Source of the DNA: a bacterium
Lineage (GTDB): Bacteria; DYJV01; JALVYZ01
Length of the DNA stretch: 9,372 bases
NCBI GenBank assembly: GCA_027037705.1
Contig: JALVYZ010000280.1
Coordinates: forward strand, 1-9,372
Direction: 5' to 3'
The notes beneath the pieces were generated by a model. It was not told the DNA's origin. It did no database searches and saw only the letters and a program-made list of their open reading frames with translations. Shown here piece after piece: positions 1-420 of the stretch; the first letter of the stretch is position 1; every line of letters starts with the position of its first letter. The translations under genes and the position numbers were made by a program.

Positions 1-66
1 TAATTTTTCTAATTCTTCTTCATTGTTAATTTTTTTGTCAATAAAAATGATTTTTCCTTTTTTCAT
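1..66 (-). CDS. 5' end of a cobalamin-riboswitch-controlled gene, product unidentified (partial)
   Basis: Only the first 22 codons lie in the window, reading MKKGKIIFIDKKINNEEELE and then KL, with the rest beyond position 1. The start is an ATG at 66-64, preceded by a strong Shine-Dalgarno GGAGGTG (77-71) with 4 bases between, so the start is well supported. The visible peptide has a basic, beta-strand-like opening (KIIFI) and then a charged helix. It shows no signal peptide and no GAGPG motif of the cobalamin methyltransferases, so I cannot name it. The upstream B12 riboswitch implies a role in cobalamin synthesis or uptake, or a B12-independent substitute enzyme. That is inference from the control element, not from the protein. 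Confidence 0.75.
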   Translation of the reverse strand, partial: MKKGKIIFIDKKINNEEELEKL

Positions 67-72
67 TTTGCA

Positions 73-92
73 CCTCCAAAATTTTTTGGAGG
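73..92 (-). promoter_or_regulatory. Shine-Dalgarno-sequestering hairpin
   Basis: A perfect 9-bp inverted repeat (73-81 with 84-92) folds on the minus strand so that CCUCC (92-88) pairs with GGAGG (77-73). GGAGG is the ribosome-binding site of the gene starting at 66. The nominal loop is only 2 nt, so in practice the innermost pair opens and about 8 bp remain. In this state the ribosome site is closed. The 5' arm overlaps segment 89-104, which has an alternative partner at 186-201, so the hairpin can be opened by strand exchange. Seen: the repeat and its overlap with the SD. Inferred: translational control. Confidence 0.7.
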
Positions 93-118
93 CTAAAGGG
101 CAGGATTTATATCCAGGC

Positions 119-146
119 AAAAAAAAAGCCTGGCTAAACCAGGCTT
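119..146 (-). terminator. Intrinsic terminator of the cobalamin riboswitch
   Basis: On the minus strand AAGCCUGG (146-139) pairs with CCAGGCUU (133-126), giving an 8-bp stem with a 5-nt loop, followed at once by a run of nine U (127-119, sharing two bases with the stem). It sits between the B12 aptamer and the gene at 66, the place expected for an attenuator. An overlapping antiterminator pairing is possible with 186-199. The plus strand lacks a matching U-tract after this stem, so it acts only on minus-strand transcripts. Confidence 0.85.
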
Positions 147-180
147 ATATAATAGAAAGGATTTATTTTATTTCCCCTCT

Positions 181-215
181 ATTACCCTGGCCTTTAGCCT
201 CGAAGCCAAAGTAAC
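181..215 (-). promoter_or_regulatory. Switching segment: anti-antiterminator hairpin and antiterminator arm
   Basis: Immediately after the aptamer the minus-strand RNA can fold a hairpin: CUUUGGCU (211-204) with GGCUAAAG (199-192) plus G200, about 8 bp including G-U pairs and a UCGA loop. It can be extended by GUUA (215-212) with UAAU (184-181). The same 3' arm can instead pair with the terminator: GGCUAAA (199-193) with UUUAGCC (138-132), and CCAGG (190-186) with CCUGG (143-139), for 12 bp with a two-G bulge. These folds are mutually exclusive, which is the logic of a riboswitch expression platform. Which fold the ligand favours is inferred. Confidence 0.6.
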
Positions 216-216
216 G

Positions 217-386
217 AAATTTTTCAGGCAGGTCTCCTGGCTCGTAGCAACCTTTACTCGCCTTCCCATTAGGGTGAACCTAACAGTGGCATAATGAGTA
301 AAGGTTAGCGCTACTCACAGTGGCGGGCCCGCTGCCGATTTTCACGGCATTCCCTTTTAACCGCATTTTGCGGACCTGAAAAATTT
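217..386 (-). promoter_or_regulatory. Cobalamin (B12) riboswitch aptamer
   Basis: The minus strand carries the conserved core of the cobalamin riboswitch family. The B12 box GCCAGGAGACCUGCC lies at 241-227, GGGAAUGCCGUGAAAAUCGG at 354-335, and the GC-rich segment ending in CGCCACUGU runs to 317. The enclosing stem P1 is a perfect 12-bp match of 386-375 with 228-217. Inside the variable peripheral arm there is a perfect 11-bp stem, 306-296 with 259-249, and an optional small hairpin CCGC/GCGG near 374-360. The aptamer binds a cobalamin and normally switches the downstream gene off. It reads leftward into the terminator at 146-119 and the gene at 66. Subclass and preferred cobalamin form cannot be fixed by eye. 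Confidence 0.95.
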
Positions 387-420
387 ATTATAAAATTCTC
401 AAAGAACTTTATTTTTTTTT

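Follow-up and report, generated by a model that had tools for sequence, protein, structure and literature searches.

Riboswitches that act on both transcription and translation are already known, and the leader described here looks like a new, modular variant of them in which a single arm is shared by the two levels. It lies on the minus strand of a DNA stretch of 9,372 nucleotides (nt), hereafter the window, which is the entire contig C280 (JALVYZ010000280.1) of a metagenome-assembled genome belonging to a GTDB phylum with one further genome, G001. The leader carries a cobalamin riboswitch and precedes the gene of a 76-amino-acid protein. We consider it rather probable that this is a cobalamin-repressed switch with two checkpoints in series, a terminator and a Shine-Dalgarno (SD) hairpin, both served by one arm. 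Positions are those of the window, read on the minus strand.

In the metE riboswitch of Priestia megaterium (PMC10653944), where a mechanism of the type proposed here for the terminator was dissected by mutation, a kissing loop between L5 and L13, of the sort predicted for the window, holds P13 and the switch is repressing; it has been described for transcription only, and no downstream SD hairpin opened by the same strand has been reported. The dual platforms classified by Barrick and Breaker (2007, PMC2258182) likewise use one riboswitch for termination and then for translation if termination fails. There, however, the ribosome-binding site (RBS) is inside the terminator hairpin, whereas in the window it is not: the SD sequence is separate, 46 nt beyond the terminator stem, and is linked to it by the shared arm. 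The trp leader of B. subtilis with TRAP (PMC12288461) resembles the proposed design in that attenuation comes first and an SD-sequestering structure in the read-through RNA second, but both steps are set by a protein and not by a kissing loop. The riboswitch Bc1 for cyclic di-GMP (c-di-GMP) has a long expression platform that acts on transcription and translation (PMC11218506); it differs in having two terminators and opposed transcriptional and translational effects, and its downstream genes were reported unchanged with c-di-GMP level. In E. coli btuB a cobalamin riboswitch acts on translation and termination (PMC11162775), but the termination is Rho-dependent and there is no switched intrinsic terminator. 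The statement of the initial annotation that cobalamin riboswitches mostly act at one level is thus not strict, given the dual platforms and btuB. Literature searches, confined to open-access papers and thus without most subscription journals, turned up no leader in which one arm under kissing-loop control serves both a terminator and an SD hairpin set apart from it.

Aptamer, predicted kissing loop and shared arm

The following elements form the upstream part of the leader.

210-394, minus strand: aptamer of the cobalamin riboswitch family RF00174, matched by cmscan over the whole model (positions 1-189) at 125.6 bits and E 5.9e-32
324-328, minus strand: L5, GCCCG, predicted to supply the 5' side of the kissing loop
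182-214, minus strand: P13 hairpin 214-203/193-182 with the 9-nt loop L13 (202-194, CGAGGCUAA), kept in G001
186-201, minus strand: shared arm, that is, L13 plus the P13 3' strand (from sequence and duplex energies), with the P13 5' strand, the terminator 5' half and 104-89 as partners

The covariance score, compared with a gathering score of 31.5, leaves little doubt that the element is a cobalamin riboswitch aptamer. Its L5 has the same sequence as in A. halodurans cobT and is close to the published consensus UCCCG (PMC10653944). As read from the sequence, L13 positions 202-197 (CGaGGC) can pair with L5 through 5 base pairs (bp) and one bulged A, and this predicted bulged pairing is of the same kind as the kissing loops of A. 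halodurans cobT and env8 (PMC10653944). The segment 214-182 folds into a 12-bp hairpin. We assign it to P13/L13 because in G001, where both L5 and L13 are identical to those of the window, the stem is kept with two-sided changes: one next to the loop, from G-C to A-U at 206:190, and three more when the outer helix is aligned by register (two sequences compared).

The arm 201-186 (GAGGCUAAAGGCCAGG) is Watson-Crick complementary to 104-89 (CCUGCCCUUUAGCCUC) at 15 of 16 positions, and the duplex was calculated at -24.7 kcal/mol. This match had been reported in the initial annotation, and a coordinate error that we considered there was rejected, the positions being exact. When 125-69 or 181-1 was shuffled 5000 times with its dinucleotides kept, no complement of the arm of at least 15/16 arose, and of 1000 shuffles of the entire 407-nt leader only 9 contained a 15/16 pair at any place. 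The arm is not an isolated free segment. Considering that it consists of predicted kissing-loop bases and the P13 3' strand, cobalamin would have a direct, homology-based route to hide it; the ligand coupling, which we infer by homology to the kissing loop, therefore stands firmer than it had been put.

Terminator and antiterminator

Three elements take part in the transcriptional decision.

149-185, minus strand: P14 hairpin 185-173/161-149, found by folding along the transcript
119-146, minus strand: intrinsic terminator 146-138/134-126 with a U9 tract at 127-119 (terminator scan; hairpin -13.5 kcal/mol)
132-143, minus strand: terminator 5' half and loop, with the antiterminator pairs 199-193:138-132 and 190-186:143-139 (folding and kinetic model)

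The proposed role of the arm as an antiterminator is supported by the energies: its duplex with the terminator 5' half was calculated at -16.8 to -18.1 kcal/mol, and against the terminators of 29 other cobalamin leaders the same arm gave -7.8 +/- 2.8 kcal/mol, with -14.4 as the best value. Folding along the transcript, suggested in the initial annotation as a check, was carried out without ligand, and the ensembles passed with the position of the 3' end from P13 (to about 150) to the antiterminator (140-130), the terminator (125-115) and the pairing of the arm with 104-89 (90-66). In these folds P14 competes with the base of P13, eroding it once the 3' end passes about 150, and stacks beneath the antiterminator; the arm then takes the terminator 5' half. 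Forcing P13 to form costs 7-8 kcal/mol at 3' ends 138-133 and 0.7 kcal/mol with the terminator complete; the cost at the decision point was 7-8 kcal/mol in three parameter sets and about 5 in a fourth. By computation, pairing of the P13 3' side with the terminator 5' side thus beats P13 when the kissing loop is absent, as in the metE type of switch.

Kissing loops lie outside the model of the folding program. A coarse, helix-level kinetic model run with no energy bonus on P13 gave the antiterminator in a fraction of 0.54-1.0 and the terminator in at most 0.46, while with -6 kcal/mol on P13 the terminator reached 0.99-1.0. The modelling gives good support to a leader that acts as a P13-antiterminator transcription switch.

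Shine-Dalgarno hairpin and the order of events

Downstream of the terminator lie the following sites.

113-117, minus strand: CCUGG, a third partial complement (to 190-186), paired in the minimum-energy structure of transcripts ending at 112-96
89-104, minus strand: downstream target, 15/16 complementary to 201-186 (sequence and energies), resembling the terminator 5' half 152-132
73-92, minus strand: SD hairpin 92-85/80-73, covering GGAGG at 77-73 (fold)

The sequence 92-73 (CCUCCAAAAAAUUUUGGAGG) folds into a hairpin of 8 bp and -9.9 kcal/mol, which masks the GGAGG just upstream of the AUG at 68-66; an equally stable hairpin was obtained in 68 of 5000 shuffles. Opening of the RBS (78-66) was calculated to cost 13.6 kcal/mol with P13 formed and 7.4 kcal/mol with the arm free. 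This computed link of 6.2 kcal/mol between P13 and SD access depends on 104-93 and on L13: the difference was gone (-0.5 +/- 1.2 kcal/mol) after 40 random shuffles of 104-93 in which the SD hairpin was kept, nearly gone after shuffling L13 (1.0 +/- 1.4 kcal/mol) and unaffected by shuffling of the terminator 5' half (6.4 +/- 0.3 kcal/mol). A single replacement of 104-93 was dropped as a control, as it gave misleadingly low costs, probably because the replacement can pair with CCUCC. The difference was 6.2-7.7 kcal/mol under three parameter sets (Turner 2004, Turner 1999, Andronescu 2007). These computed results lend moderate support to a further role of the same strand, in translation.

In a survey of 133 cobalamin leaders from diverse genomes, 70 could be scored and 30 had an intrinsic terminator; the sample consisted of best-scoring matches with automatically called start codons, and rarity in it is indicative only. 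The metric was the RBS opening cost, an unnormalised duplex score having been dropped because it was dominated by leader length. Among the 70 scored leaders the window showed the joint-largest effect of the P13 region on RBS opening (7.2 kcal/mol). The effect exceeded 3 kcal/mol in three of the 30 terminator-bearing leaders, including the window; in the remaining two the SD lies at the terminator or within it, which is the dual layout classified in 2007. Among these 30 leaders, the window alone couples the arm to an SD hairpin that stands apart, downstream of the terminator. Two further leaders, L156 and L233, in which no terminator was detected, showed P13-region coupling to the RBS of 7.2 and 6.8 kcal/mol and are likely purely translational cobalamin switches.

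The passage of the arm from the antiterminator to the terminator plus arm:104-89 state would be downhill, from -29.5 to -52.3 kcal/mol (a gain of about 23). The computed barrier was 9.7 kcal/mol before the SD is transcribed, which translates into seconds if the prefactor is taken as 1e6 per second, and near 15 kcal/mol on the path found after formation of the SD hairpin. A serial hand-off within the lifetime of the mRNA is plausible on these figures, and it may happen after transcription instead of during it. The CCUGG at 117-113, right after the U-tract, could possibly serve the arm as a stepping stone.

Taken as a repressing riboswitch, the leader would pass through two successive checkpoints by means of one strand, an order of events that we infer together with its effect on expression. 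With cobalamin bound, L5 would kiss L13 and hold P13 closed, and the arm would therefore be hidden and the terminator form; any read-through message would retain the SD hairpin. If cobalamin is absent, P13 would be opened by P14 and the arm as the terminator 5' half emerges, the antiterminator would form and transcription would go on. In the finished leader the arm would shift to its better partner, 104-89, while the terminator hairpin re-forms without harm; there it would take the base of the SD hairpin (92-89), making the ribosome site easier to open. If this is true, the transcription and translation switches share one moving part, leaky read-through is silenced by the same ligand decision, and the leader offers a compact template for low-leak synthetic riboswitches.

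The origin of the second target may lie close by, as the segment 152-132 is similar to 113-89 (AUAUAAGCCUGG-UUUAGCC versus AUAUAAAUCCUGCCCUUUAGCC), with a further CCUGG at 117-113. The resemblance suggests a local duplication of the terminator 5' half, which would account for two targets of one arm and would be a simple evolutionary route from one-level to two-level control. We would give an even chance to the full proposal that one kissing-loop-controlled strand acts as antiterminator and then as anti-sequester, possibly following such a duplication, with the same ligand decision read twice.

Several results weigh against this reading. The initial annotation had 89-104 as the region closing the SD hairpin; the hairpin is real, but the overlap comprises four bases only (92-89), with displacement of 4 of its 8 pairs. 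With the Langdon 2018 parameters the RBS difference falls to 2.0-2.8 kcal/mol. With the arm bound, the state that has the SD hairpin (-52.1 kcal/mol) and the one that lacks it (-52.3 kcal/mol) are equal in energy, with a barrier of 3.3 kcal/mol between them, and therefore the ribosome site becomes easier to open and not simply open. In equilibrium folds of the longest ligand-free transcripts the SD hairpin or another SD pairing still dominates. The coarse kinetic run, with its narrower path search, placed almost no arm at the SD site by 3' end 60, once the start codon was made. Finally, the one ortholog leader available for comparison has neither a terminator nor an SD hairpin; the layout is thus not conserved in the order, and no covariation supports 201-186:104-89.

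That leader, of G001, is the only other one with the gene (L133 1966-2227). It keeps the aptamer, L13, P13 and a P14-like helix, but neither an SD hairpin nor a site resembling a terminator upstream of the gene was found in it. The best arm complement in this single leader was 9/16 ungapped, a value matched in 260 of 2000 shuffles and so within chance expectation. Its P13 was nevertheless coupled to the RBS in folding by 5.7 kcal/mol through a different element, L133 2064-2127, and shuffling of this element reduced the coupling to 0.1 +/- 0.3 kcal/mol. One reading, a suggestion drawn from two leaders, is that control of translation is common to both and the terminator specific to the lineage of the window. 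A further metagenome-assembled genome, found through LeuS as an extra source of leaders, turned out to be the same genome as G001.

The strongest alternative, which we consider unlikely, is a switch of transcription only, with the terminator and antiterminator doing the regulation, the SD hairpin as a fixed dampener and 104-89 as a decayed duplicate of the terminator 5' half. The first level alone fits the known metE design, the two regions do look like a degenerate repeat, few hairpin bases are contested, and in the kinetic run the arm stays caught as antiterminator. But the downstream copy fits the arm better than the terminator does, which argues against simple decay, and the link of about 6 kcal/mol between P13 and RBS access runs specifically through 104-93, a coupling rare in other leaders. 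A switch of translation only, with a weak or constitutive terminator and with P13 plus the SD hairpin versus arm:104-89 as the choice that matters, seems still less probable. It would agree with the predicted coupling in the terminator-less G001 leader and with translation control being the commoner design outside Firmicutes (PMC2258182); against it stand the strong terminator-like site of a 9-bp hairpin and U9, the far better pairing of the arm with its own terminator 5' half than with the other 29, and the clean switch at the termination step in kinetic modelling. Coincidental complementarity, with an unrelated expression platform in use, would fit the missing covariation data but is very improbable given the shuffles and a match that sits exactly on L13/P13 and adjoins the SD. 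One arm coupling two levels, as first annotated, is the reading best supported by the folding energies, the shuffle controls and the coarse kinetic model.

Regulated gene and genomic setting

The gene behind the leader runs off the contig end, and an overlap of exactly 127 nt with contig C60 from the same assembly completes its reading frame.

1-68, minus strand: start of the 76-amino-acid gene (AUG 68-66), an open reading frame continuing in C60
Window 1-68, then L132 4913-4683, minus strand: regulated gene, joined via the contig overlap

The overlap corresponds to window 1-127 and L132 4848-4974 and starts at the terminator's U9 tract. The point where the two contigs part looks like an assembly k-mer junction.

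Searches of the 76-amino-acid protein against Pfam and NCBIfam families gave 0 matches. Its G001 ortholog, with 55-56% identity, is likewise behind a cobalamin riboswitch. Beyond the two genomes of the phylum no clear homologue was found among 386 genomes, where the sole marginal match (E 0.009) was within a 596-amino-acid frame. On sequence grounds it is an orphan small protein that appears to be controlled by B12 in both genomes, and the leader points in this way to an uncharacterised protein of a barely sampled phylum.

In the same genome as the window, two loci gave weak RF00174 matches, L002 on contig C199 (34.7 bits) and L003 on C124 (32.8 bits). They look like cobalamin aptamers that the best match of the model covers partly, possibly owing to an insertion. 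Judged by eye, an open reading frame close to L002 looks like the beginning of a TonB-type outer membrane receptor.
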